This document shows positions 45,086 to 64,000 of a DNA stretch of 64,000 nucleotides, in pieces. The notes below the pieces were generated by a model. That model did no database searches, had not been told where the DNA came from, and saw only the letters and a list, made by a program, of their open reading frames with translations. The translations under genes and the position numbers were made by a program. The stretch's first letter is position 1. Every line of letters begins with the position of its first letter. This DNA comes from Roseburia sp. GTDB lineage: Bacteria; Bacillota; Clostridia; Lachnospirales; Lachnospiraceae. The stretch spans positions 1 through 64,000 of the forward strand of contig JAMPFV010000005.1 of the NCBI GenBank assembly GCA_023664265.1, read 5' to 3'.

Positions 45086-46213
45086 TTAATTTCCTATCCT
45101 CCTCAACAACCTCTCCCTAGGCACTGCATATATCACAAATTCTATAGGCAGTCTTGTCGCTTTGGCAGGGTACTTGCGCAAAAAGAAATGCCAGTCCTCC
45201 CCCACTTCATCAATCAGCTTTACAATCTCGTAAGGATCCTCCTGTTTATGATACGCACAGAACGCTATGACAGGTCTCTGACTTCTGATTATTTGTCTGG
45301 CGCCTCTTAACACCCCCATTTCAGCGCCTTCAATATCCGCATTTATTAATGTAACTCTTGTATCTTTGAACAGATTATCAAATTTGTTTTTCTCATCATC
45401 CATTCCAATATACATATTTTTAAGAAGAATCTTTTCTCTGTATCTTTCATCCAATCGGTTAATATTTCCACAAAGGCGATCATACATCTTTGCATCGCCT
45501 TCAATCGCATAGATTTTGGAAAACTCATAGCCTTTTCCCAAGAATTTAAAAATAGTATCCCCCGTATAACTTCCGCAGTTTACAAAACATTCATCTTTCA
45601 GGTGTGTATATATAGCGTCATTTCCGTCAAAGTCACATCCCCAATATTTGTCGTCGTATCTATGCTCCCTCAAAAGATATGAATCATTTTGTGTGATACT
45701 TCTCACCAGCTCAACGAGCGTTTGCTTAGACTCCTCATCCTCCAGTCGGTCATGCAGCCATTCCATTTCTTCGATATGGTCGATATAATAGCTTCTTCTG
45801 CATAACATTGAAGTATTCAATGACGCCATATAAAATATATTTTCTCTTAAATATCCATGTTCGGATAAAAGCACGTCTATCTTTTCTTTTTCTGTATGGC
45901 TTGTTTCATAGGGTCTGAAACCGACTGTTACATAAACATTCCGTTTCACCTCTGTTCCAATATCTGAAATATGTTTCACTTCTATATTTTCCACTCTTGT
46001 GCCTTTTTTAGAAACATCAGAATCAATAAAATGCGCCGGTGTCATGCCATGAAACAGCAGCCACCTCGCAATGCAGGCACCCATCTGTCCCGCACCGTAA
46101 ATAACAACCTTTCCTTTATTCAACCTCGCCAAATTCAGAAGAATGGAGGCCTCCGTCGCATCCTCAATTCCATCCGTCAACTTTTCTTCCATCAATACTT
46201 CTCTTAAATTCAT
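45086..46213 (-). CDS. Rossmann module fused to FkbM methyltransferase
   Basis: The 375-residue protein has an N-terminal Rossmann module (about 35-140: VVIYGAGQMGACIARWL, then FIDSDVSKKG). A FkbM-type methyltransferase domain follows (about 180-340, with FVNCGSYTGDTIF as SAM motif I and LINADIEGAEMGVL as the acidic motif). FkbM enzymes methylate hydroxyls of sugars or of similar molecules in surface glycans. It is the last gene of the island on the minus strand. Its ATG at 46213 follows GAGAGGATG. Confidence 0.9.
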   Translation of the reverse strand: MNLREVLMEEKLTDGIEDATEASILLNLARLNKGKVVIYGAGQMGACIARWLLFHGMTPAHFIDSDVSKKGTRVENIEVKHISDIGTEVKRNVYVTVGFRPYETSHTEKEKIDVLLSEHGYLRENIFYMASLNTSMLCRRSYYIDHIEEMEWLHDRLEDEESKQTLVELVRSITQNDSYLLREHRYDDKYWGCDFDGNDAIYTHLKDECFVNCGSYTGDTIFKFLGKGYEFSKIYAIEGDAKMYDRLCGNINRLDERYREKILLKNMYIGMDDEKNKFDNLFKDTRVTLINADIEGAEMGVLRGARQIIRSQRPVIAFCAYHKQEDPYEIVKLIDEVGEDWHFFLRKYPAKATRLPIEFVIYAVPRERLLRRIGN

Positions 46214-46269
46214 TATTTCATCCTCTCTTAGTACACAATTACCGGAAAAGCCATTCATTACATCTGCTC

Positions 46270-48606
46270 TTATAAGCGCCTTATCCCATTCTCATGTCTG
46301 GATCTGTTGCATATTTGTTCCTTAATCTCCGTTGAACTTATTGTCTCTGTATATGGGAAAAACACCATATCAGCTCCACGCTGTTGCAAGAACACCTTTT
46401 TTGCAAGCCAGTCGGGATCGCTTGCATAATCACTGCCTGAAAACTGCACATCAAAGTGATACATATACCATGCATCCACCGTCCCTGGCCTGTCAACGGG
46501 TATCGCGACCGCCTCGTCCACATATCTGCAGGAGCGCACGATCTCAAACCTCTCCTCAAAGGGGATATACGGGCGCGTCTTCTTGCCGTTTATAACCTGC
46601 TCGTCCGATACCACGCCTGCAATCAAATAATCGCACTGTTCCTTCGCGCGTTTCAGCAGGTTCAGATGTCCGATATGAAACAGGTCAAACACGCCCGCCA
46701 CATAGCCGATATGATATTTCTTCGGCGTTCCCTTTTCCTCCTTACTTACGATTCGAACAGGTCTTTCGTAATCCAACCGCGGGTCGTACACAGAAATATC
46801 CTTAATACCCATATCCTTCAGCTGTTCCAGCACGTCCTCGAAAAATTTAATACAGATAAATACCTTGAAGGGGGCGCTAGGCTCCTTCAAAATATCAGGG
46901 GAGTAAATCTCTACGCCCGACAGGCTCTCCCCCCATCTCCGCTCATTGTTGTCAACAATCCCCGTAATGTCGCAGTATTGTCCGAACTGCTCAATAAACT
47001 TCTCCGAATACTTTCCTGAGCCAAACAACCAAATCGCCCTACCTTCTGTTCCCTTAAAAATATTGGTGAACAGCCTTTCATACTCTTCCTGGCTATAATT
47101 CATCCTATGTCGGTTGACAGCTATTGTTTTTCCCTCCGCTCTATGCCGCACATGATATTCGGACAACTTTATATCATTACTATGCATTTGCAAAAATAAC
47201 TGCCCTATTCTTCTCCAGATGTTTTGATGCTTGTAAAGGTTAAAGTGCTTCAACAAGTCTTCCCTGGAGTATATTTTCTCCATATCAGGGCTATCTTCAT
47301 AGATAAAATCAATCGTTCTGATAAAGACAGCATTCGCCGGAAAGTTTTGCACAAAAAATTCCTGATCAAAAAAAACAAATCCCTTTTCAGTATGGAAACA
47401 GTTTATTGACACTAAATCTATATATCCCCGTTTCAGGATCACACCAATATTCCGTCGCTCTTCTTCTGTTCCAAATGCACGTTTCCGCCACTGATCAATG
47501 TTTGGATCATCCTTTTTCCGTTTCTCCCACTCCGGTTCAAACTCTTGCCAGTTTACTTCCTCATAGGGTACATGTTCCGAAGATGCCAAAATAATCTGCC
47601 TGAATGACTCAAGTTCCTGTACAAAAGTCTTTTTGTTCTTTCTCAAAATCTCCTGGAAATACTCCGTCGCAATTTTCCCACCTATATAAGGCATTATATA
47701 CATATCATCCTTTATTTCCGCATCAGCCACGGGAACATTATGTTGCATTAAATCTCCGGATATTTCCATAAGGATTTGCGTCTTATACTTGCCCTCGGGA
47801 TACAAGGCCTTTTTGGCGACCCATTCCGGATATTTTATTACTGTTGCCATGGCTTCCTCCGGATTACAGTCTCCTTGCACTGTAATCTGGTCAAAATCCG
47901 TAGGTACTCCATCCACGCTGCATTCGACCAAAAAGCCGTTGGCCATCTGGTGGAACATATGATTCTCCATCAAAGTCTCATATAGGCGTTCCTCCTCAAG
48001 GTAAACCGTTTCCGGGCTTCTGTATTGCGGGCGAATCCGTACATCCAACTTTTCATTAGGCATATAAGTTTCTGAAATCAGAATTTGCGGTCGCACCAAT
48101 TCCGGCATGACTGAATAGAATTTGTATTTTCTCAAGCCTGCCCTATCAAACATTTTCTGCAGTTCTGCTTTCGCATACGCGCGGCCTCCATTAACTCTTC
48201 TCTGCATATCATTTACTTTGTGATAACCGTCCGGCCCATCCAATATATGCCCCGTAAATGCATCTTTATCTCCGCAAAAATAGCGGACAGCCAATCGATT
48301 CTCCGTTGCGAGAATAAGCTTTCCTTGTTTCCTTAAAAGCTTTCTAAAGCTTACAAGCAGCCTCACCGGTTCCTCACTCTTTTCTATAACTCCGGCTCCT
48401 ATAATGTAATCAAAGGTTCCATCTATTGCATACACTCCTGCTAAATCTGTTTTGACTGCATCTATTTTTTTTTCTCTCAAGGCATCTAACAATACTTCAC
48501 ATTCCAGTATACCGCCTGAAATGAATAGAACCTTGGCCCCTGTCTCAAAATCATACCAACTAATCAATGCCTTGGGTAGGTTTTTGATGATTTTATCTGT
48601 CTCCAT
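46270..48606 (-). CDS. methyltransferase-kinase-Rossmann-cytidylyltransferase fusion
   Basis: This 778-residue protein has four parts. Residues 1-170 are a class I methyltransferase-like domain. Residues 200-490 look like a small-molecule kinase fold: N-lobe KKALYPEG, hinge MPYIGG, catalytic loop GYIDLVSINCF with Asp397 and Asn402, and a DFG-like FFDQEF with Asp414. Residues 520-615 are the Rossmann module (IWLFGSGKYSEKF, then VDNNERRWG). Residues 630-770 are a cytidylyltransferase (GVFDLFHIGHL with HxGH 644-647, ending in TISSTEI). The order methyltransferase then kinase recalls WbdD, the O-antigen chain terminator. Kinase plus cytidylyltransferase could also make a CDP-linked precursor. Confidence 0.82.
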   Translation of the reverse strand: METDKIIKNLPKALISWYDFETGAKVLFISGGILECEVLLDALREKKIDAVKTDLAGVYAIDGTFDYIIGAGVIEKSEEPVRLLVSFRKLLRKQGKLILATENRLAVRYFCGDKDAFTGHILDGPDGYHKVNDMQRRVNGGRAYAKAELQKMFDRAGLRKYKFYSVMPELVRPQILISETYMPNEKLDVRIRPQYRSPETVYLEEERLYETLMENHMFHQMANGFLVECSVDGVPTDFDQITVQGDCNPEEAMATVIKYPEWVAKKALYPEGKYKTQILMEISGDLMQHNVPVADAEIKDDMYIMPYIGGKIATEYFQEILRKNKKTFVQELESFRQIILASSEHVPYEEVNWQEFEPEWEKRKKDDPNIDQWRKRAFGTEEERRNIGVILKRGYIDLVSINCFHTEKGFVFFDQEFFVQNFPANAVFIRTIDFIYEDSPDMEKIYSREDLLKHFNLYKHQNIWRRIGQLFLQMHSNDIKLSEYHVRHRAEGKTIAVNRHRMNYSQEEYERLFTNIFKGTEGRAIWLFGSGKYSEKFIEQFGQYCDITGIVDNNERRWGESLSGVEIYSPDILKEPSAPFKVFICIKFFEDVLEQLKDMGIKDISVYDPRLDYERPVRIVSKEEKGTPKKYHIGYVAGVFDLFHIGHLNLLKRAKEQCDYLIAGVVSDEQVINGKKTRPYIPFEERFEIVRSCRYVDEAVAIPVDRPGTVDAWYMYHFDVQFSGSDYASDPDWLAKKVFLQQRGADMVFFPYTETISSTEIKEQICNRSRHENGIRRL

Positions 48607-48682
48607 GTCTGTTACACCACTTTCTTCCGTCCCCTACATCGCTTCTGCGACTACTCTTTTCACAAGCTCCATATTTTTTAAT

Positions 48683-50011
48683 TTATCTTCCTGCCCACTC
48701 CATTTCGCAGTATCTAAGCACATTGTCCATCCCCGAATCCCAGACAAAAATATCTTTGAAACCTACCGTTGCCGCACATCTTCTCATTTCAAGTTTCGTT
48801 CTTAAATCCGCAACCGCTATAATCACTTTGCAGTTTTTATTTATATTTTCATCCGTTATTAAGCAGACATTTCCTGCATTCCCTGTCAAATCCGAAACTA
48901 TAAACTCAATCTGACAATCCGGGTTTAATTTATTAATAAATGCTTCAATTCTCCGTCCAACCTTCCCTGCTCCATAAATATACAACCTTTTTTCGCATAT
49001 ATATTGTTTGAGCATTTTACCATAAGCCGTCGCATTACGCCGCACTATTTTATCATTTAGCAACATCCTGTAACAGGTCTGTGGAGCTACCGCCCAGATA
49101 TTCATGTTCTCCCACTCTGATATCGTCAACGGTTCCCTGCAAAACTGCAATATTTCACTTGCCCATTTCATTTCCGCAGATGTTTTTATGAAAAATTCTT
49201 CCAGATAAGTCTCATCAATTCTTCCGATATTCCATTGATAACATTTATACATATATATAGAAAGATACGGCAAAATAATGTCCTTCCTCAAACCGGAGTT
49301 CTTCAAATATCTTCTGCACTCCTCTATTTCATCGCAAATACAAAATACCTTTTGCGAAGATTTCACTGATGAATTGTCATTATCCAGACGGTAGTTTACA
49401 AATGCATCCTTTATAAGCATACCTCTATGTGCCGAAACACAAACTTTAAACCAAAATCCTGTATCCTGATATGATGCACCTGCTGTTTCAAGCAGCCATA
49501 TACCTTTGTCTGCCAAGAAACTTTTTCTGTATAAACCTGCCCAAATGCTTTTTGTAAGAAAAAGCTTATCCATATTCTCATATTCCGAATACACTACCCC
49601 ATAATCGCAGCCAGGCTGTTCCTCATGCGCCGCTCTGTGTGTATCACTATATTCATAATAACTGCATTTTACATAGTCAAGGGAATTATTTTCAATAACT
49701 TCACAAAGTCTTTCATACATATTGCTTTCAATAAAATCATCGCTTTCAACAATACCAATATACTCTCCGGAAGCCATGCTGATTCCCAAATTAACTGCAC
49801 TTCCATAACCTGCATTCTTCTTGTGAATCACCTTGATTCTGCTGTCCTTTTGGCCATATCTGTCCGCTATTGTCCCTGATGCATCCGTAGAACCGTCATC
49901 CACACATATAATTTCAATGTCATTGAGTGTCTGGTTTATCACACTCTCAATACATTGCTCCACATATTTCTCAACGTTATATATTGGAATTACTACACTG
50001 ACCTTTGCCAT
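48683..50011 (-). CDS. GT2 glycosyltransferase with C-terminal Rossmann module
   Basis: The 442-residue protein begins with a GT2 fold: SVVIPIYNVEKYVEQCIES, DDG at 38-40 and the DxD-type VESDDF at 88-93. It is an inverting nucleotide-sugar transferase acting at the cytosolic face. From about residue 340 it carries a Rossmann module (LYIYGAGKVGRRIEAFI) of the type shared with ten other proteins here. There is no membrane helix. It lies 76 bases upstream of the four-domain fusion gene and 9 bases downstream of a second GT2 gene. Confidence 0.93.
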   Translation of the reverse strand: MAKVSVVIPIYNVEKYVEQCIESVINQTLNDIEIICVDDGSTDASGTIADRYGQKDSRIKVIHKKNAGYGSAVNLGISMASGEYIGIVESDDFIESNMYERLCEVIENNSLDYVKCSYYEYSDTHRAAHEEQPGCDYGVVYSEYENMDKLFLTKSIWAGLYRKSFLADKGIWLLETAGASYQDTGFWFKVCVSAHRGMLIKDAFVNYRLDNDNSSVKSSQKVFCICDEIEECRRYLKNSGLRKDIILPYLSIYMYKCYQWNIGRIDETYLEEFFIKTSAEMKWASEILQFCREPLTISEWENMNIWAVAPQTCYRMLLNDKIVRRNATAYGKMLKQYICEKRLYIYGAGKVGRRIEAFINKLNPDCQIEFIVSDLTGNAGNVCLITDENINKNCKVIIAVADLRTKLEMRRCAATVGFKDIFVWDSGMDNVLRYCEMEWAGR

Positions 50012-50020
50012 CTTGTCACC

Positions 50021-51040
50021 TCAGTTCCAAACAGACCGAACGGTCTGGTGCCCGGTCACACGCATTTTTCTCCTTTTCAGTAGAACATACAGAAACCCTG
50101 CCATCCGATACCTTATCGCTATGGGAATCCAAAAGCTCTTTTTCGGACTATTCCTATGGTAATGAGATATTGCCATTCTTGTATTCGCAGCATCAACAAA
50201 GGCTTTAAGATTTCTTTTTGTTTCCCTGACGGTTTCCGGAGCATACTTTACATATGTAACAAGCTCCCGTATAATCTGATCAATATAACAAAATGAGAGT
50301 TCTCTCAGACTTCCTGCGCCATCAATTATCCCACAAACCTCATCGTATCTCCTCTGTTCCATCTGATAGTGGTCGTAAAAAATATTTTTGGTACACGAGT
50401 TTTCATTATCATCCATATAATAGTAAACAACATTTTTTATAGAACTTATTTTGTTTACATGCTTCATATACTCCACCACAAATATGGCATCCTCCCCACA
50501 CCGGAGATCCTCAGGAAATCTTACCTTATGGTCGCGTATAACCGCCATCTTATACATACCGATGCAAGATGAAGTCGAACCGAGCCGTTCTCCTTTATAT
50601 AAAGCAATAAAATAATTCTCCACAGAATATGTCCTGTCTTCCAACCGGTTTACATATTCCGTATATTCAAATACTTTTGCCCAACCGCAAAATACCACAT
50701 CGCTGTTCTCCGCAGTTATATTATTTAGCATCAATTCCACAAAATCCGGGGGGATTACATCATCGGCATCCACAAAATGCACATACTCACCCCGAGCAAC
50801 ATCAATTCCATAATTCCTTGCATATGACACACCATGGTTTGTGTTGTGATATGATTTAATCCTCTTATCCCTCAACGCAAAAGCATCACATATCTCACCG
50901 CTTTTATCGGTAGACCCATCGTCTACCAAAATGACCTCAATATTTCTGTAGGTCTGTTCCAATATACTGTTGACTGTACGTCTCAAAAAAAGTTCTGCAT
51001 TATACACCGGAACAATAACCGACACCAACGCCCCACTCAT
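50021..51040 (-). CDS. GT2 family glycosyltransferase
   Basis: The 339-residue GT2 enzyme has SVIVPVYNAELFLRRTVNS, DDG (40-42) and the DADD motif (91-94) for nucleotide and metal binding. The C-terminal third is helical with basic residues, suggesting peripheral membrane contact. It lacks the Rossmann module. It transfers a sugar from a nucleotide donor to the growing glycan; the sugar is unknown. It is nine bases upstream of the modular GT2 gene. Confidence 0.93.
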   Translation of the reverse strand: MSGALVSVIVPVYNAELFLRRTVNSILEQTYRNIEVILVDDGSTDKSGEICDAFALRDKRIKSYHNTNHGVSYARNYGIDVARGEYVHFVDADDVIPPDFVELMLNNITAENSDVVFCGWAKVFEYTEYVNRLEDRTYSVENYFIALYKGERLGSTSSCIGMYKMAVIRDHKVRFPEDLRCGEDAIFVVEYMKHVNKISSIKNVVYYYMDDNENSCTKNIFYDHYQMEQRRYDEVCGIIDGAGSLRELSFCYIDQIIRELVTYVKYAPETVRETKRNLKAFVDAANTRMAISHYHRNSPKKSFWIPIAIRYRMAGFLYVLLKRRKMRVTGHQTVRSVWN

Positions 51041-51053
51041 AAAATTATCCTCC

Positions 51054-52826
51054 TCAGACTCCTACATCAGGCCGGTTATACGAAATACTAACGTCATATA
51101 CCCCGATGTCCTTCACACCCATATCACGCAGTTGCTTCATCACTCTATCATAATTTTTGATACATATAATTACTTTACATTCTTCCACACCAAGCTCCAT
51201 CAACTCACTTGGTGACAGAACCGGTATACCCGCAAAATTCTGTCCCCATTTTTCTGAATTATTGTCCACAACAGCGTATATAGGATAATCGTACCTGTAT
51301 GTTTTAATAAATTTTTTCGCGAAAGTTCCCATGCCAAATACAATTAACTTTTTATCTCTCAATCCATTGAATATATCAAAAAATATTTTCTGGTATTCTG
51401 CATTTGAATAATCCATTCGCTGTCGGTTTCTTTTTATTGTTTCAGAATCAGCCCTGTACTGCTCATAAAACCGGCCCAGCTCATTTTGATGGCGCAGATT
51501 ATTTATAAATTCGGCTGCCTTGCGTCTCCACAAATCAAGGTACCTGTCAAGCCCATACCGTCTCAGGAAAAACTCCATCGGGAGCATCTTATTCATGTCG
51601 CTGTCCGCAGAGTATGCTATCACCAGCATCCGATAGATAATCAGATTAGCCGGACAGTCCTCTTGGCAAAACTCCTGATCATAAAATACATATTCCCCAT
51701 TTATCACAAAACAGTTTAACGGAACCAAATCAAGATACCCTCGTTTGAGTATCACCCCCATTCCGTCATTTAAATCCTCACATGAATGTTCTGATGACTG
51801 CAATATCAAATCCCTGAAACGATCTATTTCTTTTATCAGACATTCCTTGTTCATTTTAACCAAACGCACAAAATATGTGGTTGCTATCTCCGCATCTATA
51901 TACGGCATCACAATAGCGCCATCCTCAAGGACGGCATCCACAACATTTAATCCATGCGCACGCAAATCAGAATCATGTTCTATCATCTGACGCAATTTTA
52001 TCATTCCTTCAGGATACGCAGCCCTCTTTTCTACCCTATTATTATCGCAGACAAGGGTAAACATTGCATTATCTCGCCCTCTGTCCATTGTTGCTGTTAC
52101 ATGTTGGACAGATGAATAATTACTATTCATCGGACATTCTATCAGATACGAATTTGCCATCGCATGAAAAAGTCCATTTTCTATCAAATCTCCGTAAATA
52201 AATTCCTCGTCAATAAAAACGGTACCTGGATTATTGTATGCCGGAACATATCTGGTCGCCAGCTCTTCCACAGGATTATAGTCATGCGCGTAAATAAGCT
52301 GTGGAAAATCTAAATCAGGCAGTACAGAGTAGAATTTAAAACCGTTTATCCCACTGTTGCAAAGCAAATTTTTTATCTCTGCTTTGGTATACATACGCCC
52401 TTCCAAATTGTCTCTTTCGCTCGGTGACATTCTCCTGTAGTTCTCAATGCCATCAAAAACCCTATCTGTATATTTATCCTTATCCCCACAAAAATACCTG
52501 AGTCCCAAACGATTGTCTGCGCCAATCAACAGTATCCCGTCACCTTTTAAAAGACACTGCCATCGTTCTATATCTTTTTGCGGCAGCCTGCATCGTTCTA
52601 ACACACCTATCGCAACTATATAGTCAAAGTCCTGTCTGTTCTCATCCATAAATGCCTGTGTTATTTCCCCTGAATTGATACAGACTGTTTCCATGTTTTT
52701 ATCCATAAAAATACTTTTTAGAAAATCATTTCTGTCCGTCAGATACAATACTCTGCTGTTTTTCTTAAAATCGTACCACTTCAGCAAGCCTTTTGAGAGC
52801 TCACAAATCATTTCATTTTGTGCCAT
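51054..52826 (-). CDS. methyltransferase-kinase-Rossmann fusion
   Basis: The 590-residue protein is a paralogue of the first 615 residues of the gene at 46270-48606, without the cytidylyltransferase. A methyltransferase-like domain comes first (1-170). The kinase-like region then shows Lys267 in VEKRAAYPEG, hinge MPYIDAE, catalytic loop GYLDLVPLNCF with Asp366 and Asn371, and Asp383 in FYDQEF. The C-terminal Rossmann module (LIVFGMGTFAKKF, then VDNNSEKWG) spans about 493-585. Two such paralogues in one island suggest that they act on different ends or sugars of the same polymer. Confidence 0.85.
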   Translation of the reverse strand: MAQNEMICELSKGLLKWYDFKKNSRVLYLTDRNDFLKSIFMDKNMETVCINSGEITQAFMDENRQDFDYIVAIGVLERCRLPQKDIERWQCLLKGDGILLIGADNRLGLRYFCGDKDKYTDRVFDGIENYRRMSPSERDNLEGRMYTKAEIKNLLCNSGINGFKFYSVLPDLDFPQLIYAHDYNPVEELATRYVPAYNNPGTVFIDEEFIYGDLIENGLFHAMANSYLIECPMNSNYSSVQHVTATMDRGRDNAMFTLVCDNNRVEKRAAYPEGMIKLRQMIEHDSDLRAHGLNVVDAVLEDGAIVMPYIDAEIATTYFVRLVKMNKECLIKEIDRFRDLILQSSEHSCEDLNDGMGVILKRGYLDLVPLNCFVINGEYVFYDQEFCQEDCPANLIIYRMLVIAYSADSDMNKMLPMEFFLRRYGLDRYLDLWRRKAAEFINNLRHQNELGRFYEQYRADSETIKRNRQRMDYSNAEYQKIFFDIFNGLRDKKLIVFGMGTFAKKFIKTYRYDYPIYAVVDNNSEKWGQNFAGIPVLSPSELMELGVEECKVIICIKNYDRVMKQLRDMGVKDIGVYDVSISYNRPDVGV

Positions 52827-52845
52827 TTATCATTTCCCTGTATTC

Positions 52846-53985
52846 CTATTCACCACTAGTCAATCCGTTTCCTCTGTTTAAATATGTGCTTTTTATTTTT
52901 TTGATTCGTTCCCCATACTTCTCTCTGGCAATCCATGTCTCCACATCAGCCCATGAAAACTCAACATTGCGCAGTGGATGCGCATAATGGTGAATGGAAT
53001 GCGTGTATTCCGTTATCCTTCCGACAGCACCTTCAAAATCCGTGGGTGCGAAGAATTCCATGGGAAAAACCGCAACATTATTTTTTACCTGAAACTGCCC
53101 GCTTCTCTCAAATCCATACTTTTCCATCACTTCAGACTGTATGACCGGACAGGTTTTCATATTTAAGGAGCCGTCTTCCCAAACAAACGGCATACGTTCG
53201 TATACTTCCAATATATCCTTCAGAATCATATGTCCTTGAACAGCCCCAACCCCAAGCCCCCATGCAATATAATTAGTTCGTTCAAATCCACAAAACAAAT
53301 CCCACACAAGCATATCGTCAAAGGGAGCAATCACCTCCACATCCGTGTCAAAATAGATGCCTCCTTCATGGTATAAAATATCCACTCTCGCATAGTCCGA
53401 TACAAAGGCCCACATTTTCTGCTCATAGGCTTCATGGACGTATCTGTTTTTATGGACATCATAATTCGACTCATCCCATCGGATGATCTCGTAATCGGGG
53501 CAGTATTTTCCCCATGATTTCATATAATTGCGATACTCAATCGGAATTTCTCTCCCGCCAAACCAACAATAATGGATTTTTTGGGGAATAACCGGCCTTG
53601 TCGGTTTCTTCTCTATATGGATTTCTGTATGCTCCGTCTGCAGGGCAATCAAAAAGTCTACATAACAATCCATTCCGTCACATTCCCTTATGGAATCTAA
53701 CTGTTCCAGTAATTCCTCAATGGCGGCACAGGTGATGACAACTACGCTGTTCCCATCACACCGCTTTGCAAATTCTTCGGCGGAAATCACGGGAACCGTT
53801 TTCCCGTTCATAAAAACAGATTTTTTTCCCACATGGCAGTAATTATCAATGATACCTTCCACCACGACTTCGCTATACTCACTGGCAAATGCCTGCAGTC
53901 TTTTACCCGCTCCGAAACAATACAACTTCTTATTTTGCACCCGCTTGACAAATTCACTTTTACTGCAGTCTATCAGATTTATCAT
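52846..53985 (-). CDS. Rossmann module fused to GT32-type glycosyltransferase
   Basis: The 379-residue protein has an N-terminal Rossmann module (LYCFGAGKRLQAF, then GIIDNYCHVG; residues about 18-110). A GT32-like domain follows (VIPQKIHYCWFGGREIP at 132-148, with the DxD motif DTD at 213-215 in YFDTDVEV). GT32 enzymes transfer mannose, galactose or similar sugars in capsule and LPS synthesis. The gene is one base downstream of the stand-alone Rossmann gene and 19 bases upstream of a fusion gene. No signal peptide or TM helix. Confidence 0.93.
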   Translation of the reverse strand: MINLIDCSKSEFVKRVQNKKLYCFGAGKRLQAFASEYSEVVVEGIIDNYCHVGKKSVFMNGKTVPVISAEEFAKRCDGNSVVVITCAAIEELLEQLDSIRECDGMDCYVDFLIALQTEHTEIHIEKKPTRPVIPQKIHYCWFGGREIPIEYRNYMKSWGKYCPDYEIIRWDESNYDVHKNRYVHEAYEQKMWAFVSDYARVDILYHEGGIYFDTDVEVIAPFDDMLVWDLFCGFERTNYIAWGLGVGAVQGHMILKDILEVYERMPFVWEDGSLNMKTCPVIQSEVMEKYGFERSGQFQVKNNVAVFPMEFFAPTDFEGAVGRITEYTHSIHHYAHPLRNVEFSWADVETWIAREKYGERIKKIKSTYLNRGNGLTSGE

Positions 53986-53986
53986 C

Positions 53987-54472
53987 CTAACCTTCCTCTG
54001 CCCATCTATCTATAACCGACCACATTGAAACAATCGGAACGTTCGTCCTTTCCTGCAACATATCATAAATAGTACCATAATAAAAAATCGGTGTGACAAC
54101 AATGCAGTCAACTTCAGGTATTGCGGAATCAACCCCTATCACAAATTCATTCTCATTTGACGGAGCTGACTTGTCCATTATCGCTACTACTTCTATATCT
54201 GTATCAGATAGCGCTTGAATAAGTCTCTTGCCAATATATCCATTCCCATATACCATAATTTTCTTATATCCGTGATTATGGAAATATTGCTCGATACTGT
54301 TCCCGGAATAAACAAATTCCAACCAGTCATTAAACAACATCATGTTGGAAAGATTACGATCCATCCGCTTCTTATAGTCGTTTATCATGCCTGCCAGTGT
54401 CTTTCCCCCAAGAACAAATCCGATTCCAAATGATGACATCCCTGTCAAACAAATGACAAATTTATTTTTCAT
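53987..54472 (-). CDS. Rossmann-module protein with hydrophobic N-terminus
   Basis: The 161-residue protein consists of a hydrophobic N-terminal segment (about 5-25: FVICLTGMSSFGIGFVLGG), a helical linker (EQYFHNHGYK), and one Rossmann module (IMVYGNGYIGKRL, then IMDKSAP). It has no attached enzyme domain. It is therefore the minimal form of the module found in ten other proteins of the island. Its gene is next to the GT32-like fusion (1 base) and the methyltransferase gene (3 bases). It could be a membrane-anchored docking or nucleotide-binding subunit; this is inference. Confidence 0.82.
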   Translation of the reverse strand: MKNKFVICLTGMSSFGIGFVLGGKTLAGMINDYKKRMDRNLSNMMLFNDWLEFVYSGNSIEQYFHNHGYKKIMVYGNGYIGKRLIQALSDTDIEVVAIMDKSAPSNENEFVIGVDSAIPEVDCIVVTPIFYYGTIYDMLQERTNVPIVSMWSVIDRWAEEG

Positions 54473-54475
54473 TTA

Positions 54476-55138
54476 TCATCGCTCCTTCCTACAGCAAAAG
54501 ACTACTTTAGGTGTATGCATCTTATCTTCATTATGAGTTATTTCCCTTTCTCTCCGGCACTGATATGTCAATCCGATTCTTTTTAAAAATCTCTTCATTC
54601 TCCAAGGTGATATAAAATGCTGCCCAAATCTTTCTTCCGTGTCAATCCCCAAAAATCTGAAATATCTTTCTTTTATTTCTGTCCGCTTAGCGTTTAAACA
54701 AAATACGTTGTATCTGTCCATTATGTCAAAAATCACATACCCGCCCGGTTTTGTCATGGAAGCCATTTTCTTAACCGTTTGATAGAAATCGGGAATATAC
54801 CAGCTTGCCCTTACACAATAAGTAACGTCGTACACTTCCTCAGCTCCCGAATATTCTTTTACATCGCCAACCCAAATTCCTTTTTCATTACCAAGTTCTT
54901 TTTGTGCCAAAGCAATGGAACTTTCAGCCACATCACATCCGTCAATTTCTATGCCCTTGTTTTTCAATGCAGCTCCTATCGGCCATCCTGTACCAATCCC
55001 CACTTCAAAGACCTTCTTTGGTTTCGATTTTAAAATCAGATTAACAAGATTTTGTTCATATAGCCCATAACCATACTTTTTTGTCTGACTCGCCCAATAT
55101 TTATTATATACTGTTTTGTAGTATTGAATCTCATCCAT
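54476..55138 (-). CDS. SAM-dependent methyltransferase
   Basis: The 220-residue enzyme is a class I SAM-dependent methyltransferase. Motif I is KKVFEVGIGTGWPIGAAL (about 39-56), the acidic residue at the end of strand two is in DGCDVAESSIAL, and motif IV-like residues lie in YDVTYCVRASW. It acts in the cytosol on a small acceptor or nucleotide sugar. It lies between the aminotransferase gene upstream and the stand-alone Rossmann gene three bases downstream. Lack of the Rossmann module sets it apart from the fusion methyltransferases. Confidence 0.9.
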   Translation of the reverse strand: MDEIQYYKTVYNKYWASQTKKYGYGLYEQNLVNLILKSKPKKVFEVGIGTGWPIGAALKNKGIEIDGCDVAESSIALAQKELGNEKGIWVGDVKEYSGAEEVYDVTYCVRASWYIPDFYQTVKKMASMTKPGGYVIFDIMDRYNVFCLNAKRTEIKERYFRFLGIDTEERFGQHFISPWRMKRFLKRIGLTYQCRREREITHNEDKMHTPKVVFCCRKER

Positions 55139-55172
55139 ATCCTTTATATCCCCATTTCCTTATTCCGACACG

Positions 55173-56207: not shown

Positions 56208-56220
56208 CTTTTTCCCTCCG

Positions 56221-57267: not shown

Positions 57268-57293
57268 ATCATGCTCCCCCACTCATTCCAATT

Positions 57294-58766
57294 CTAATCC
57301 CACAGCGCACGCCACTTGGGTGCCAACACATCCCATGAGGAATGATTCCAAACGAGCTCCGCATTTTTCCCGCATCTTTCTTTATAGATATCCGGATTTG
57401 CAACAACATCCTCCAAAACCGCCGTTACGTCAGGTATCGTATCCACGTCAAGGAAATAAATCCCCATTTCATGTAATGACCTGTAGGGCAGCCAGCTTCC
57501 GGCTATGACAACGCTCCCCGCATACATCTCCTCCAGCATGGTGGAGCTCAACTGATCTGTCGTTTGGACATGGATCATGATGTCGGAGATCAGGGCATAC
57601 TCGGCCATTGATTGGAAGTCCATAAATTCGGTCAGAACTACATATTCAAGACCAGTTTTATCTAATCTACATCTGACTTTTTCAATATATGCCTTACTTC
57701 CATTATATGTCATTGGAAATACACAAACTATTTTTTGTTTTTCATCGTCTTGCAAATTACACAGCGCATCTATAATATCCATGTGTTGATGTGCTTCACT
57801 GGCATTATGTCCACATGTAACAACAAATTTGTCTAATGGAATATGGTACTTTCTTTTCATTTCATTGTTATTCTGATTTTTGCTTGAATTAATAAAATCC
57901 AGCACCTCTATCCCAAAAGGAAGAAATCCCACTTGACCCTTTATTTCATCACTATAATAATCCTGAAATTCCCGAACAGTTTCTTCTGTTTCTGCAGTCA
58001 CTTTGTCCGAACATGCAATTAATTTCCTCTTGAAATCTCTTTCAGTTCTACTTGCCCTATAGAATTCACTTCCCCCCACATTAAGATAAAGCTTTCTTGT
58101 CTTATTCCTTAATACTTTATAAAAATATGACCATACATTTTCAATCCACAGCACCTGCATTACATCATACACTGGCAACTGAGCCAAAATTGTTTTTATG
58201 TCTGATTTAGTCTGAAAAAAATAAATATGTTTCAGGTATCTTGCATCTATCTTATCCTTGTTTTCCTGTTCGCTCGTTAACAGGCTGATCTCTATATCAT
58301 TGTATCTTTTAGCCATATTCTCAATAAGCTGTTTCGTATACACAGAATAAAACGAATAAATTATCAGTATCTTTTTATAACCTGTACTTTGTTCTTTATT
58401 ATTGAGCAAGTCATGCTGCACCAGTTCCTTCTCTGTTCCATCTATTTTTTGCGCATCTAATGGATACACCTCATACCTAAACGAATCATTTATTCGGACA
58501 CCCTCCCCCAAATATATTCTATCCCGGTCAACACCCATCTGCAGTAACTGATATAAAATATCAATGTAAAAATTTGTCGGTGTAATAACAATATTACAAT
58601 CATATTGTAGTATTTCATTTGGAGCTTTTACTACATAGCCTTCAAAAGCACTGCCCCATTTTTCCTGTTCATTATCCGTCACAAACAAAATACGATATTT
58701 ATTTTTTAACCAATGAACCGCTTTTTGTCCATTCTTCCCTATACCAAAAACTATCACATTCTTCAT
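57294..58766 (-). CDS. Rossmann module fused to GT-B glycosyltransferase
   Basis: The 490-residue protein has an N-terminal Rossmann module (about 1-95: VIVFGIGKNGQKAVHWL, then VTDNEQEKWG). A GT-B, GT4-like glycosyltransferase follows: a YSFYSVYTKQLIENMAKRY N-lobe, a C-lobe with CGHNASEAHQHM and, near the end, STMLEEMYAGSVVIAGSW. The cytosolic face is expected. A longer frame of seven codons upstream has a weak site; I start at ATG 58766. It is 26 bases upstream of the radical SAM gene. Confidence 0.9.
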   Translation of the reverse strand: MKNVIVFGIGKNGQKAVHWLKNKYRILFVTDNEQEKWGSAFEGYVVKAPNEILQYDCNIVITPTNFYIDILYQLLQMGVDRDRIYLGEGVRINDSFRYEVYPLDAQKIDGTEKELVQHDLLNNKEQSTGYKKILIIYSFYSVYTKQLIENMAKRYNDIEISLLTSEQENKDKIDARYLKHIYFFQTKSDIKTILAQLPVYDVMQVLWIENVWSYFYKVLRNKTRKLYLNVGGSEFYRASRTERDFKRKLIACSDKVTAETEETVREFQDYYSDEIKGQVGFLPFGIEVLDFINSSKNQNNNEMKRKYHIPLDKFVVTCGHNASEAHQHMDIIDALCNLQDDEKQKIVCVFPMTYNGSKAYIEKVRCRLDKTGLEYVVLTEFMDFQSMAEYALISDIMIHVQTTDQLSSTMLEEMYAGSVVIAGSWLPYRSLHEMGIYFLDVDTIPDVTAVLEDVVANPDIYKERCGKNAELVWNHSSWDVLAPKWRALWD

Positions 58767-58783
58767 ATATGATCTTTCCTTTT

Positions 58784-59725
58784 TCAATAAATTTTTTTAA
58801 TATATAGTGCGGTCACTGTATAAAAACTTTTTAAGGCATATCCTTCCTCTCGCATCTTCTTATGAATTGACGTTTCCAGCACTGCTTCAATATCGTTCTG
58901 ACCCAATAATTCTATCAATACACATTTGGGCTGATATTTCTTCCAATTGAAGGAATAAACAATCCGCTCATCAAATCCCTCTACATCAATATCAACAAAG
59001 TCAATTTTCTCAATGTGATATTCTTCCAAAATATCATTAATATTGCGGACTTTAATAACTTTGGTAGCTGTGACAGACTGTAAATTTTCCTCTTCCACAA
59101 AGGAATTTTTCCCCTCGGCTCCTTCAAAAATATGATATACTAACTCTTCATTTTTATCAGATACCCCACAATTAATATTAATATCTTCCGGACGAAACAT
59201 ATTAAACAGTTTTATACTCTGCTCATTTGGATCTATATTCATCCCTCTCCACCCTAATTCATACGCCCATCTTGTATTATTATAAGCAAACGGATGATAT
59301 GCACCTATATCCAGATAAAATCCTTTGTATCCGTTCAAAAAACCATTGCATGTAAACCAATGCTCCAATCCCACGTCTTCACCCAACTGGGAATTGATAA
59401 CCTTATTCCACGCATCTCTTATATCAACTATGCCCTGCCCTGTATTTGGCGTATATGCTTTTGCAAAGGAAAGTAACCCGTCCTCAGCCAATTGCAATAT
59501 GATTTGATCCATTCCGGCACGAGTTGTAATATAAATAATATCATTTTCTTTGTCAAATTGACTTTTCAATTCATCATACCCATAAACAAGAATTTCCTGA
59601 AACAATTCTCCTTGCCTTTCAGGCGAATTATCAACAAACCCTTTGCATTTTAATTTCCCATATTCTTTTATATACTTTTCTCCCCATTTTCCAGCTCCAA
59701 AAAGCCATATGTTTTTCCCAGACAT
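58784..59725 (-). CDS. Rossmann module fused to FkbM methyltransferase
   Basis: The 313-residue protein has an N-terminal Rossmann module (NIWLFGAGKWGEKYIKEY, then FVDNSPERQG). A FkbM methyltransferase follows, with LDIGAYHPFAYNNTRWA as SAM motif I and VDIDVEGFDERIV as the acidic segment. It is a paralogue in layout of the gene at 45086-46213. The start is uncertain: ATG 59725 (site GAGAGG 9 bases away) or ATG 59731. It ends 17 bases upstream of the next gene. The acceptor is unknown. Confidence 0.9.
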   Translation of the reverse strand: MSGKNIWLFGAGKWGEKYIKEYGKLKCKGFVDNSPERQGELFQEILVYGYDELKSQFDKENDIIYITTRAGMDQIILQLAEDGLLSFAKAYTPNTGQGIVDIRDAWNKVINSQLGEDVGLEHWFTCNGFLNGYKGFYLDIGAYHPFAYNNTRWAYELGWRGMNIDPNEQSIKLFNMFRPEDININCGVSDKNEELVYHIFEGAEGKNSFVEEENLQSVTATKVIKVRNINDILEEYHIEKIDFVDIDVEGFDERIVYSFNWKKYQPKCVLIELLGQNDIEAVLETSIHKKMREEGYALKSFYTVTALYIKKIY

Positions 59726-59739
59726 ATCCATCTTCCTCT

Positions 59740-60960
59740 CTACCAATAACATCCGTCTTCTACTTCTTTATAATTCTGTGGTTTCAAATCATCTGTTGGT
59801 CTGACCCAATATTCATTATATAATTTATGTTGATAATCATAGCCGCTTTCTTCCCAGCGTTTTCCTTTTATTCCAAACAAAATCTGCAAGGAGCCTCCCA
59901 TATGTATCGCTTTCTTACGTAACTCTGATTTTATGAACGCTCCCAGCGGCATACCGTATGCACCACAGCCAATCAGGGCAATATCAAAATCTATTGTTCT
60001 AATATCATTTTTCATTTTATCTAATGCCATAAACCATGACTTAAACTCTGAATTTCCATTCATTGACTGCACTGCCTGATATACAATCAGGTTCATCTCG
60101 GGCAAAATATTTTGTGTTTTAAATAGTCTGCTTCGGTATACATATTGTTTTGCTATCAATTTTGCAAACGGATGAATTGCCAATACCGTTTTTCCTCTCA
60201 ATGCTCTTGTCCATGAGGAATCCGGCCAAAAAGGATACATCATATTCGACGTAACTAATATAGCTTTGGGAGAATAAAGTTTATATAGATCCTCTATCCA
60301 TGTGCACCAACATCCAGCTATCAAAACATCAATTTCTCCTGCAGCACTCGCACTGCATTCTGAAAACTTATGAATAGAACCATTATCTATCGGATAAAAT
60401 CCTGCATTATTTTTTAATGAAAATGCTACAGAATCACTAAGCATTCCTGCTAAATCCGCATAAACAGCCTCACCTTCCACACCTCCCCATCGTGAACATA
60501 GAAAAGGAAGATTGTCATTTAGTTTATTCTCCAGCATTTCTTTTGCTTCTGTATCCCCTAATGGCTTACACATTTTCTCTCCATTATAAAACCCCTTTTC
60601 ACCTAGCCTTTGTGTTAAAAAAGCATAATCCTTATGCTGATATCTATACATTACGGCTTTATTATTATACAATAATATTTCCTCTGAAATCTCATTCGCT
60701 GTCTTTTCAGATTGAACAGCTATAATAAATTTTATCTTATCAATTTCACTTTTTATCTGCTCCAAAGTTATATGTTCATTCATATCTTTAATAGCAGAAT
60801 CTTTTTTATCATAAATCCAAATATTTTTTAATTTATTAACCCGAATTTCCTGTAAAAGCATGCGTCCCCATCTGCCTGCTCCCCATATAACCACAGAGGA
60901 ACTTTCTCTGATTTTCGCCACATCTTCCCACCCCCGTACTATTTCCATATATTTATTCAT
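59740..60960 (-). CDS. Rossmann-like module fused to GT-D-like domain
   Basis: The 406-residue protein begins with a Rossmann-like module (VVIWGAGRWGRMLLQEI, then IWIYDKKDS; about residues 20-110). A domain resembling GT-D glycosyltransferases follows (NLPFLCSRWGGVEGEAVY, and later LVTSNMMYPFWPD). GT-D enzymes act on glycans attached to surface or serine-rich adhesins. The match is by motif only. The start is ambiguous: ATG 60960 touches the GGAGG, and ATG 60948 is 12 bases away. It lies 12-36 bases downstream of the GT4 gene depending on the start. Confidence 0.78.
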   Translation of the reverse strand: MNKYMEIVRGWEDVAKIRESSSVVIWGAGRWGRMLLQEIRVNKLKNIWIYDKKDSAIKDMNEHITLEQIKSEIDKIKFIIAVQSEKTANEISEEILLYNNKAVMYRYQHKDYAFLTQRLGEKGFYNGEKMCKPLGDTEAKEMLENKLNDNLPFLCSRWGGVEGEAVYADLAGMLSDSVAFSLKNNAGFYPIDNGSIHKFSECSASAAGEIDVLIAGCWCTWIEDLYKLYSPKAILVTSNMMYPFWPDSSWTRALRGKTVLAIHPFAKLIAKQYVYRSRLFKTQNILPEMNLIVYQAVQSMNGNSEFKSWFMALDKMKNDIRTIDFDIALIGCGAYGMPLGAFIKSELRKKAIHMGGSLQILFGIKGKRWEESGYDYQHKLYNEYWVRPTDDLKPQNYKEVEDGCYW

Positions 60961-60996
60961 CCTCCAACTACAACAAAAGCACATATAAGTATTCTG

Positions 60997-62646
60997 CTAC
61001 CCTTTGCCTGACATATTGTAAACAAGGCTGTCTATCACTGTACTTAACCCTATTACATTATCATATCCAAGCTTTTTAATTTCACTAATTATCTGTTTTT
61101 CAGACAAAATTACTGTAACAACTATGGCATCTGCATCCAGTTCTAAACTATCCAACCATGAGAACTCAAAAATTTTGTCCATTCCATTCGGATTTTTATC
61201 CAGCAGATATCTAATTTCTATATCACTGTTTTCCAGTTCATCATACAGCCTGCAGCCCAATGCCCCCATACCATAAATAGCTATACTATGAATATGATTT
61301 TGTTTGAAATATTCGCTGAACGAATGACCATTTTGTCTGATTTCCAGCCATTTTAACGCCACAGGAAACATTAAAGCCGATTTTCGATATAAGACACCCT
61401 CTGTATTTCTTCTATTAAAATCCTTAAGTTCGCTAATTGAGGTATAATATGCCTTTAGTGTATTCAAAAACTCATCATAATTATAAGATTCAAATGCTTC
61501 TATTGTTTCATTATAAATCCTTAGCAATTCCACGCAATACTGCTTTGAATCAAACGTATTTTCTGCATATTTTTGTGCCTTACAAACAAGAATATTCTTT
61601 TGTTCCTCAGTACAATTTATAGCTCGTTCCATTGTATCTGCAAGTGATTTACTGTTCCCTAATTCATACAAAAAACCTCCTTCTTCATTGGAACCGATAA
61701 TTTCTGTTGTTCCGCCGCTCTTTGCGCCGATTACAATATTTCCCGCAAGCATCGCTTCTATCGTCACTCTGCCAAGCGCTTCATTCTGTGAGCTGGTTAT
61801 TGCATATGACGCACAGCTACGCAACTGTGACAAATCCTCCTGAAACGGGAGAATATGAATATTATTTTCCAGTTTTTTTCTTTTGATATATTTGTTCAAC
61901 GCCCAGACATAACCTGACGACCCATTTCCTACTATAATAACTTTAATATCGTCATGCCCCTTTTCCACAAGGTGTTCCGCTGCTTGAATAATATCCCACT
62001 GCCCCTTTTCAGGCGTTATCATCGCCGCTGCGATAAAAACTTTATCAAATTTCTCCCTTATCACTTCGTCTCTCTTAAAACGCTTAATATTCAACCCATT
62101 GTACAATCTGTATGTTTCAAGCCCGTATTTTTTTTCATATTGCTTTTGAACATAGTCTGATATTGCAATCCGTTTATCTGCTTTTTGGAAAAGACTTATT
62201 TTTAACTCTTCATTTAGGAACTCGCAGCCAAACTGTTCCTGAAGCAGTTCCCGTATATGCCAGATATATGGAATATGCGCCATTAAGGCGGCTATTGCGG
62301 CAAAAGAACTTACGCTGGAATTAATATGTATTAGTTGAATCTCTTCTTTTTGAATAATTGGAAGCAACTGTAATGCAGCTTCATAGCTTTGTATCACATC
62401 CTGCTTTTTCTTATCCATGCCCGCGCTTCCTATTTTTACATAATCCGTGGCGAACGGAATCCTGTAACACTTTATCCCTAATTCAGTAAAATTATTTTCA
62501 ACCTCCGCGCCAGCCTGTATAATAACGATTGGATTTATTTCGCTTTTTATTTCAGATAATGTGTCCAACAAAGACTGCCCCGCGCCGCCAAAGCCAGTGT
62601 CGTTAAATATATACATGATGTTTTTTTGAATATTATTATTGTGCAT
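60997..62646 (-). CDS. GT4 glycosyltransferase with C-terminal Rossmann module
   Basis: The 549-residue protein is a GT4 glycosyltransferase of GT-B fold. A donor-binding C-lobe has QNEALGRVTIEAMLAGNIV with the EX7E pair, and PEKGQWDIIQAAEHL precedes it. A Rossmann module ends it (IAIYGMGALGCRLYDEL, then LLDKNPNG; about residues 450-545). It is the first gene of the main island, 12 bases from the next. Its upstream 141 bases contain the terminator of the retropepsin unit, so the island needs its own promoter, which I could not pin down. Confidence 0.93.
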   Translation of the reverse strand: MHNNNIQKNIMYIFNDTGFGGAGQSLLDTLSEIKSEINPIVIIQAGAEVENNFTELGIKCYRIPFATDYVKIGSAGMDKKKQDVIQSYEAALQLLPIIQKEEIQLIHINSSVSSFAAIAALMAHIPYIWHIRELLQEQFGCEFLNEELKISLFQKADKRIAISDYVQKQYEKKYGLETYRLYNGLNIKRFKRDEVIREKFDKVFIAAAMITPEKGQWDIIQAAEHLVEKGHDDIKVIIVGNGSSGYVWALNKYIKRKKLENNIHILPFQEDLSQLRSCASYAITSSQNEALGRVTIEAMLAGNIVIGAKSGGTTEIIGSNEEGGFLYELGNSKSLADTMERAINCTEEQKNILVCKAQKYAENTFDSKQYCVELLRIYNETIEAFESYNYDEFLNTLKAYYTSISELKDFNRRNTEGVLYRKSALMFPVALKWLEIRQNGHSFSEYFKQNHIHSIAIYGMGALGCRLYDELENSDIEIRYLLDKNPNGMDKIFEFSWLDSLELDADAIVVTVILSEKQIISEIKKLGYDNVIGLSTVIDSLVYNMSGKG

Positions 62647-62717
62647 TTTGTGTGTTCCCTCGTTCTACAAAATATATTGTTTCTTTCTGAATAAAATCTT
62701 CTTCCAAAAAATAAATA

Positions 62718-62760
62718 AAAAATCTGATGTATCCGTACAGACTTCATACTTTACATCAGA
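62718..62760 (-). terminator. terminator after the retropepsin gene
   Basis: TCTGATGTA (62723-62731) and TACATCAGA (62752-62760) form a perfect 9-bp stem with a 20-base loop. On the minus strand it ends in a run of six T. It separates the retropepsin unit from the GT4 gene at 62646. Confidence 0.8.
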
Positions 62761-62787
62761 CTTTAATCTTATTTATTCAATTATCTT

Positions 62788-63213
62788 TCAGACTGCCTCC
62801 AGATCAAAATTATCGTTATAATCATCAGCATCCTTACAGAAATATATTCTTTCGTTATACGGATTGGCAATAAATATGATTTGCCGTAAAATATCCATCC
62901 CCAATACAGTATCCGTAACCCGTTCATCGAAGGTAATCCAAATGTCCTGCTCTCCCATATCTATGTTTCCTATCGTAAACTGTTTTAGCCTGCATTTATA
63001 AAATTTTACCGGTAATCCTTTTACAAATCCTCCAATAAATTTTATCTCGCTGTCAGAAAAATCTGATTCACGAATATCCGACTTCAGGGAAATATGATTA
63101 CAACATGTATACATTGCTCCTGTATCTACGATAAAATCAACAATGCACACCCGGTCCATTACCGCAAGGCAGATAATTGGATATTTGCTATCCTTTAAAT
63201 TCGTACTGTACAC
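62788..63213 (-). CDS. retropepsin-like aspartic protease
   Basis: The 141-residue protein has the retropepsin motif DTGA (Asp30) in FIVDTGAMYTCCNH and the partner motif VLGMDIL near residues 108-114. The length is that of one half of a pepsin, so two chains would form the active dimer. There is no signal peptide, so it acts in the cytosol. Most bacterial retropepsin-like proteins have unknown targets. It overlaps the upstream 89-aa gene by 26 bases, and a terminator follows. Confidence 0.88.
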   Translation of the reverse strand: MYSTNLKDSKYPIICLAVMDRVCIVDFIVDTGAMYTCCNHISLKSDIRESDFSDSEIKFIGGFVKGLPVKFYKCRLKQFTIGNIDMGEQDIWITFDERVTDTVLGMDILRQIIFIANPYNERIYFCKDADDYNDNFDLEAV

Positions 63214-63457
63214 CTACTGCACCTCCATTGTTGTAACTTCCTCTTAGAACACATATTTTTCCATCGTCTTCCAGTCTGTCTCTTTCACTGATAAGCTCCC
63301 TGTATGAATCATCCGATGTGCTGACACAATATAAATAACCTTCATCATCTACAATCTTATCATAATTATCTATGATATACAGATATTTACAATCTTTATA
63401 CAGTTTCCTGATTTCCGTATCTGTCCGCAAAACTTTCTCATCCAATATTTTCAACAT
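63188..63457 (-). CDS. 89-aa protein paired with the retropepsin
   Basis: The 89-residue product is mostly charged, with Glu/Asp/Arg helices (KILDEKVLRTDTEIRKLYKD) and a beta-rich C-terminus (GKICVLRGSYNNGGAVGVQY). No family recognised. It is the first gene of the pair and starts 42 bases after the -10 box of a perfect promoter. The 26-base overlap with the protease gene implies coupled synthesis. It may be an inhibitor, activator or substrate of the protease. Confidence 0.72.
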   Translation of the reverse strand: MLKILDEKVLRTDTEIRKLYKDCKYLYIIDNYDKIVDDEGYLYCVSTSDDSYRELISERDRLEDDGKICVLRGSYNNGGAVGVQYEFKG

Positions 63458-63498
63458 ATTATTGCCCCCGATTTCTTAATAATGCAATTATTATATTT

Positions 63499-63527
63499 AT
63501 TATAATATTGGATAGAGTACGTGTCAA
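63499..63527 (-). promoter_or_regulatory. perfect consensus promoter for the retropepsin unit
   Basis: TTGACA (63522-63527), 17 bp, TATAAT (63499-63504) on the minus strand give a full sigma-A consensus. It points to the 89-aa gene whose ATG is at 63457. The rest of 63458-63624 holds no gene. Confidence 0.85.
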
Positions 63528-63624
63528 ATCATTCTTCAAACTTACATTTGTTTATTGATGTAAAGTATAAAATTGTCAAGGTACTGTTTCTGCATTACTT
63601 ATTGTAACAGCGTCTTTTACTTCC

Positions 63625-63993
63625 TTAAATAATTTTCTTTGTTAAGTACATTGTTGCCAGTTCTTTAATACTGACACATTTTAGTTTTGTATTATCTTCA
63701 CTCTCTAACTGTTGCTTAATCTCTTCCCCTTTTTCTTTTACCGCTATCAAGACAGATATATCCATGTTCTGCAATTCGTCAGGAGAGATTACCTTAATTT
63801 CATGAAAATATGTATCCCATTTGCTCTTATTGTTGTCTGAAAAGTACAAAATCCTTACATGACCATCTGCAAGGTTTCTATAACATTCTTCCGCCCAAGT
63901 TCCCGTACCAAAAATTGCAACTGTCATTACCGTCTTGCGAAAATATTCACATAGTAATTTACTCATTAGCCCCTTTAAATTTTGCATGTCCAT
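63625..63993 (-). CDS. Rossmann-module protein, possibly the 3' end of a longer gene
   Basis: The visible 122 residues are one Rossmann module (VAIFGTGTWAEECYRNL, then FSDNNKSKWD), ending in a short helix. The frame has no stop between 63993 and the window edge and no clear ribosome binding site before the ATG. It may therefore be the C-terminal part of a larger glycosyltransferase, as in the GT4 gene where the module is preceded by a similar EYFKQN-type linker. As a free protein it would be a second stand-alone copy. It lies upstream of the retropepsin unit. Confidence 0.65.
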   Translation of the reverse strand: MDMQNLKGLMSKLLCEYFRKTVMTVAIFGTGTWAEECYRNLADGHVRILYFSDNNKSKWDTYFHEIKVISPDELQNMDISVLIAVKEKGEEIKQQLESEDNTKLKCVSIKELATMYLTKKII

Positions 63994-64000
63994 ACTAAAA

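Follow-up and report, generated by a model that had tools for sequence, protein, structure and literature searches.

The window analyzed here is a stretch of 64,000 nucleotides of Roseburia sp. (GenBank assembly GCA_023664265.1, contig JAMPFV010000005.1, positions 1 to 64,000 of the forward strand), and from position 45,086 onward it holds a glycan gene island. Eleven genes of this island, named below by their first coordinates, share a Rossmann-like module of about 90 residues, and all eleven were present where an initial annotation, made from the letters of the DNA, had placed them. The modules, and one membrane helix that precedes a module, are located as follows.

45827 to 46126, minus strand: module of gene 45086-46258, N-terminal; the partner is an FkbM methyltransferase.
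46783 to 47049, minus strand: module of gene 46270-48606, internal; methyltransferase-like N-domain, unconfirmed middle domain, C-terminal cytidylyltransferase.
48740 to 48994, minus strand: module of gene 48683-50011, C-terminal; the partner is a GT2 enzyme.
51090 to 51362, minus strand: module of gene 51054-52826, C-terminal; a relative of 46270 without the cytidylyltransferase.
53656 to 53943, minus strand: module of gene 52846-53985, N-terminal; the partner is a GT32/DXD glycosyltransferase.
54020 to 54277, minus strand: module of gene 53987-54472, a membrane-anchored bare module protein.
54404 to 54460, minus strand: predicted N-terminal transmembrane helix of 53987-54472 (residues 5 to 23, Kyte-Doolittle value 1.76).
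58509 to 58775, minus strand: module of gene 57294-58787, N-terminal; the partner is a GT4 enzyme.
59450 to 59725, minus strand: module of gene 58784-59752, N-terminal; the partner is an FkbM methyltransferase.
60649 to 60909, minus strand: module of gene 59740-60984, N-terminal; the partner is GT-D-like, slightly below the Pfam cutoff.
61057 to 61302, minus strand: module of gene 60997-62646, C-terminal; the partner is a GT4 enzyme.
63664 to 63939, minus strand: module in the window part (63625-63999) of a gene that continues beyond the window end, at the C terminus of a 367-amino-acid GT2 protein.

When aligned, the module segments of the eleven genes had two invariant glycines and one nearly invariant aspartate. 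We scored each member with a profile built from the other ten, and all 11 outscored each of the 200 shuffled versions of their own protein, the island control proteins, and every module-free open reading frame (ORF) of the window (417 ORFs tested). The E values of the members ranged from 5 × 10−19 to 0.002, against about 0.02 to 0.3 for the best module-free ORF; the weakest members were 45086, 48683, 52846, and 59740 (about 14 to 15 bits). A 28-sequence profile from the same genome, built partly from the 11 window sequences that it recovers, found exactly these 11 in the window, each at an E value of ≤1.1 × 10−14. These results bear out the proposal that one module is common to the 11 genes. 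A twelfth candidate at 63191-63475 was rejected, as its score was weak and the gene there is a small, unrelated one.

The fold of the module was assessed by structure prediction, a check that the initial annotation had suggested. An AlphaFold2 (AF2) model of the 51054 module had a predicted local distance difference test score (pLDDT) of 95.7 and a predicted template modeling score (pTM) of 0.87. With differences in Z of less than 1 treated as ties, the model matched the domain of unknown function (DUF) of WbaP (8t53, Z = 11.8), 3nkl (11.6), the CoA-binding domains of succinyl-CoA synthetase (11.5), Rex (11.4), WeeI (10.7), and the N-domain of the FkbM methyltransferase 2py6 (10.1). When compared with solved structures, a profile of the window's 11 sequences alone matched 3nkl (E value = 4 × 10−8), Rex (7.8 × 10−6), and VioB (3.5 × 10−4). 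Weak Pfam matches among 28 modules were to PglD_N (10/28), CoA_binding (8/28), Methyltransf_14 (4/28), and C2185-like_N (3/28). The module is thus one homologous Rossmann-like domain of the CoA_binding_3/PglD-N/Rex-Rossmann type, and the relatives guessed from its shape (PglD_N, CoA_binding_3, and the C-terminal domain of C-methyltransferases) were the right ones.

Pfam has no family for the module at its cutoffs, bar one marginal match: no window protein reached a cutoff for the module except the excised 51054 module, which passed that of CoA_binding (PF02629, gathering threshold 22.3 bits) by 0.2 bit at 22.5 bits, against 17.4 bits for the whole 51054 protein and 20.8 bits for 57294. For PglD_N (PF17836, gathering threshold 23.4 bits), the best window protein reached 18.3 bits (51054), and for the NCBIfam Rex models, 45086 reached 25.9 bits against a cutoff of 126. 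Neither CoA_binding_3 (PF13727) nor Methyltransf_14 (PF08484, gathering threshold 23.5 bits) was listed at an E value of ≤1 in the ten window proteins scanned; the latter gave 16.1 and 17.8 bits outside the window. Hexapep had no match at an E value of ≤1 in the window's module proteins.

The module resembles CoA_binding_3 (the WbaP DUF 8t53, and 3nkl) in its YGAG turn and in the best profile and structural matches (3nkl, E value = 2.6 × 10−9); in WbaP, too, a noncatalytic Rossmann domain sits on a glycan enzyme, there with a link to the membrane. PF13727 differs in that, in the literature we found, it follows a transmembrane bundle on phosphoglycosyl transferases and dehydratases, whereas the module sits on dozens of families. 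The N-terminal domain of PglD, VioB, and NeuD (PF17836, TIGR03570) is similar as well, with weak NeuD_NnaD matches in 20/28 modules alongside those to PglD_N, but the hexapeptide acetyltransferase domain is absent from the window's 11 proteins and the module scores fall under the cutoffs. The Rossmann domain of the redox sensor Rex was close by profile (E value = 2.5 × 10−8) and ranked first in Foldseek, yet the module lies far under the Rex model cutoffs and the Rex architecture is absent. The C-terminal domain of C-methyltransferases (PF08484; 4rv9) is also an accessory Rossmann domain beside a methyltransferase, with weak profile similarity only (best E value among the 28 modules, 4.5 × 10−4). 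In 2py6, such an N-domain is fused to FkbM in a solved structure, a single case, and we know of no island or anchored copies of a domain of that type.

Across 364 modules (effective number, 309), the conserved positions outside the core were an aromatic residue before the glycine turn, G12 (97%), G14 (90%), G/A17, and D35 (80%) together with N36. In a Rossmann fold, these positions are found at the ligand edge of the sheet. The robust signature is [YFW]-G-x-G-x-x-[GA] followed by D-N at the end of strand 2; this part of the motif first described held, whereas its "xxWG" and "xxxMGxxD" elements occurred in a minority of the modules (W in 18%, G in 43%). Modules linked to RgpF had V in place of D35 in 8/8 cases, which suggests that the ligand may differ between classes.

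Gene 63625 had been taken for a lone module, but its protein is the GT2 enzyme listed above, and the true bare copy is 53987. The fusions to GT2, GT4, GT32, GT-D-like, and FkbM proteins stood, whereas a kinase partner was a reading of motifs and was not confirmed: the middle of 46270 and of 51054 has APH-like kinase motifs by eye, with no sequence match to a solved structure and no database support. Gene 46270 has a methyltransferase-like domain at its start and, at its end, a cytidylyltransferase akin to the ethanolamine-phosphate, glycerol-3-phosphate, and choline-phosphate enzymes; 51054, with 37% identity to it, has a methyltransferase-like start too and lacks that end. The full 778-residue model of 46270 (pLDDT, 53) was unusable for the arrangement of its domains, and its top Foldseek rows held only methyltransferase-like and Rex-like matches.

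The island extends past the window end, up to about 81.6 kb on the contig. By profile search, this genome holds about 30 modules, with a second island on contig C6 and single copies on other contigs, and its congeners hold 2 to 60 modules each. Close relatives in the named genome collection were Lachnospiraceae. Of 298 genomes of this family, 191 had a match at 1 × 10−5, and many had at least 10 modules, the counts per genome being lower bounds (at most 17 candidates scored in each). In a sample of the phylum, most genomes had none or one to three matches, many in proteins of Rex, PglD, or CapD-like length, and a few other lineages had 6 to 12. Literature searches found no paper describing a shared module of this kind.

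The survey of module partners covered 40 regions from 23 genomes, together with this genome and six named contigs; the regions were chosen for module richness, and the counts describe islands rather than genomes. The 363 module proteins carried the module at the N terminus (145), at the C terminus (145), internally (28), or alone (27), and 18 were cut by locus ends. Their partner parts fell into 71 clusters, with the module on one side in most of them. Among the representatives and a sample of 105 proteins, the partner parts matched GT2, GT4, GT32/Caps_synth, GT-D, WbsX, RgpF, TOD1-like, TagF-like, and MptE-like proteins, FkbM, TylF, and other methyltransferases, radical SAM/SPASM, AP_endonuc_2 TIM barrel, cytidylyltransferase, TupA ATP-grasp, and HAD. 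Since PglD-like acetyltransferases with hexapeptide repeats made up 3/105 sampled module proteins, the profile also reaches this known family. HAD-like proteins of about 700 residues had an N- or C-terminal module (loci L009, 17045-19135, and L136, 8296-10584), and eight proteins carried two modules each, some in tandem at the N terminus of a radical SAM-like protein (examples are L107, 1982-3664; L109, 358-2037; L098, 17437-19254; and L079, 7623-10442).

About three quarters of the island ORFs carried the module (358 with it, 15 doubtful, and 105 codirectional without it). The 105 module-free ORFs were rich in precursor enzymes, namely, epimerases/dehydratases (10), DegT (4), NeuB (3), IspD (3), CTP_transf_3 (3), and nucleoside triphosphate (NTP) transferases, which serve nucleotide-sugar and cytidine mono- and diphosphate (CMP/CDP) pathways. 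None of these precursor families ranked within the 25 most frequent in the sample of module proteins, and 62/105 module-free ORFs had no relative among the module partners. This bias suggests that the module marks late-acting glycan enzymes, with exceptions. Only 1/105 module-free ORFs looked like a polytopic membrane protein, which indicates that flippase and polymerase genes are rare inside these stretches.

In the bare module protein 53987 (161 residues), a hydrophobic helix at the N terminus is followed by a short conserved helix (WLxxKQxGK in its relatives) and then by the module. At one threshold, a strong hydrophobic N-terminal segment was present in 16/28 bare module proteins, compared with 18/317 partner proteins, and the anchored bare modules formed one family upon alignment. 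Among 24 genomes of the genus, this family was found in 15/16 of those with at least 10 modules and in 1/8 of those with fewer (Fisher test, P value = 1.8 × 10−4, a guide only because the ten-module cut was chosen after the counts were seen and because the genomes are related to one another and not all complete). The bare class retained D35 in 100% of its members and G14 in only 46%, as if docking, and not nucleotide binding, were its main role.

The modules were highly divergent, with 9 to 40% identity to the query. For 224 of 339 modules, the nearest module in another genome belonged to the same partner cluster (35 expected; maximum of 55 in 60 shuffles), whereas the nearest module overall was no more often in the same genome than by chance (24 versus 21). 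These results indicate that the fusions are mostly old and inherited, although about a third of the nearest relatives have another partner, so that partner swaps also occurred. Recent shuffling or gene conversion within a genome is ruled out as the main pattern, as nearest relatives share the partner and not the genome.

As to the product of the islands, flagellin clusters share contigs with module islands in several congeners, and the listed flagellin genes of this genome lie on contigs other than the island contigs. A CDP-amino-acid route has been proposed for the type A flagellin glycan of C. difficile (PMC10714395), with an enzyme set similar to that of the islands. The shared contigs and the NeuB, MptE-like, and CDP-linked functions are suggestive, and only that, of flagellin carrying the glycan in some genomes. 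In one congener, a module-free protein of about 816 residues (L124, 1838-4288) separates the flagellin cluster from the module island, and large proteins similar to it are found next to other islands (L012, 12803-14308, and L113, 5870-8416).

Several further features adjoin the islands. A small retropepsin-like gene (gag-asp protease family, borderline) has exactly three copies in this genome, all of them within or next to a module island (window 62788-63213, minus strand; L009, 16212-16637; and L012, 14369-14827), and a gene of about 90 codons lies directly upstream of at least two of them (window 63191-63475 and L012, 14769-15320). Three genes at L012, 1359-4367, which resemble UDP-FucNAc synthesis genes by eye (FnlA/B/C-like), adjoin the second module island. 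At L009, 7436-7554 (contig C56, about 69.9 to 70.05 kb), a run of nine Gs in the glycine-turn codons breaks the frame of a methyltransferase-like module gene, possibly through slipped-strand phase variation or an assembly error.

We tentatively favor a reading in which the module, borne by late-acting glycan enzymes, serves in assembly and regulation and has kept a nucleotide-type pocket. Under this reading, the glycosyltransferases, methyltransferases, radical SAM enzymes, and phosphotransferases working on the growing glycan would be kept close together or at the membrane through binding of their modules to membrane-anchored bare ones such as 53987, with the anchored copies as hubs; a nucleotide-type ligand in the pocket of the enzyme-borne module would tune activity or contact, much as it does for the WbaP DUF. 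A contact function is needed to account for the anchored bare modules and for the bias toward late enzymes, and a ligand to account for the conserved pocket. Both contact and sensing are on record for relatives: the WbaP domain dimerizes and binds uridine mono-, di-, and triphosphate (UMP, UDP, and UTP), which stabilize it, and UMP at 4.1 µM inhibits the full-length enzyme (PMC10942596), while for EpsZ, a regulator was proposed from modeling and activity data to promote dimerization via the same DUF region (PMC12802240). The nucleotide binding foreseen by the initial annotation thus gains indirect support from the conserved ligand-edge residues and the WbaP domain. Its docking unit gains support from anchored bare modules that track module-rich genomes and from the lack of the module in most precursor enzymes. 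The modules evolve with their partners and are not interchangeable.

Several observations weigh against the assembly-and-ligand reading. Glycosyltransferases account for about 25 of the 105 module-free island ORFs, about a quarter, so the module is not obligatory, and the TIM barrel and cytidylyltransferase partners may themselves make precursors. Genome G019 has 28 modules, and no anchored module was detected in it. A single common docking surface is not obvious in divergent modules that track the partner and not the island. Moreover, pocket conservation fits a purely sensory role equally well: each enzyme would have its own allosteric domain that reads UMP, CMP, UDP, or NAD(H) and throttles the pathway, with no assembly. 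Such a role, which we consider possible but doubtful, accords with the nucleotide effects on WbaP, whose DUF is the closest characterized relative, with the binding of NAD(H) by Rex modules, and with the match between pocket residues and conserved ones in most partner classes; it leaves the anchored bare modules with a degenerate GxG unexplained, and the methyltransferase, radical SAM, and TIM-barrel partners release no nucleotides.

That the module is part of the active site, binding the nucleotide or carrier handle of the substrate in the PglD-N style while the glycan or its building blocks are modified in nucleotide-attached form, appears improbable. PglD and VioB N-domains and C-methyltransferase C-domains are relatives, and the cytidylyltransferase and TagF-like partners imply CDP-linked intermediates, yet the module is missing from the islands' nucleotide-sugar epimerases, aminotransferases, and nucleotidyltransferases, GT2 and GT4 enzymes already have donor sites, and the bare anchored modules have no catalytic partner. 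Still less probable is an old stabilizing appendage of no specific role, fused early and inherited with each partner. Modules do follow their partners, with no homogenization within genomes, but the residues at the ligand edge are conserved from one partner class to the next, there are anchored bare modules whose presence follows the number of module copies, and drift hardly explains carriage by most island genes. Finally, a bolder form of the assembly reading, in which the module is a universal plug domain by which anchored bare modules gather the late enzymes of a surface glycan, possibly that of flagellin, into a nucleotide-gated modular assembly line, is conceivable although on balance rather unlikely; the docking domains of polyketide synthases and the dockerins of cellulosomes offer a loose analogy.

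Single fusions of such Rossmann domains, as in WbaP, PglD, and FkbM, were already known. In the present case, entire islands have the same domain on most of their genes; it is joined to more than fifteen enzyme families and also comes in membrane-anchored bare versions. A role as a docking plug would account for the way in which gut bacteria make and exchange highly variable surface glycans, and it would offer engineers a tag with which to arrange glycan enzymes; a role as a sensor would extend the idea of UMP feedback on WbaP to entire pathways. In both cases, many glycan genes of gut bacteria contain a domain unnamed by Pfam and NCBIfam.

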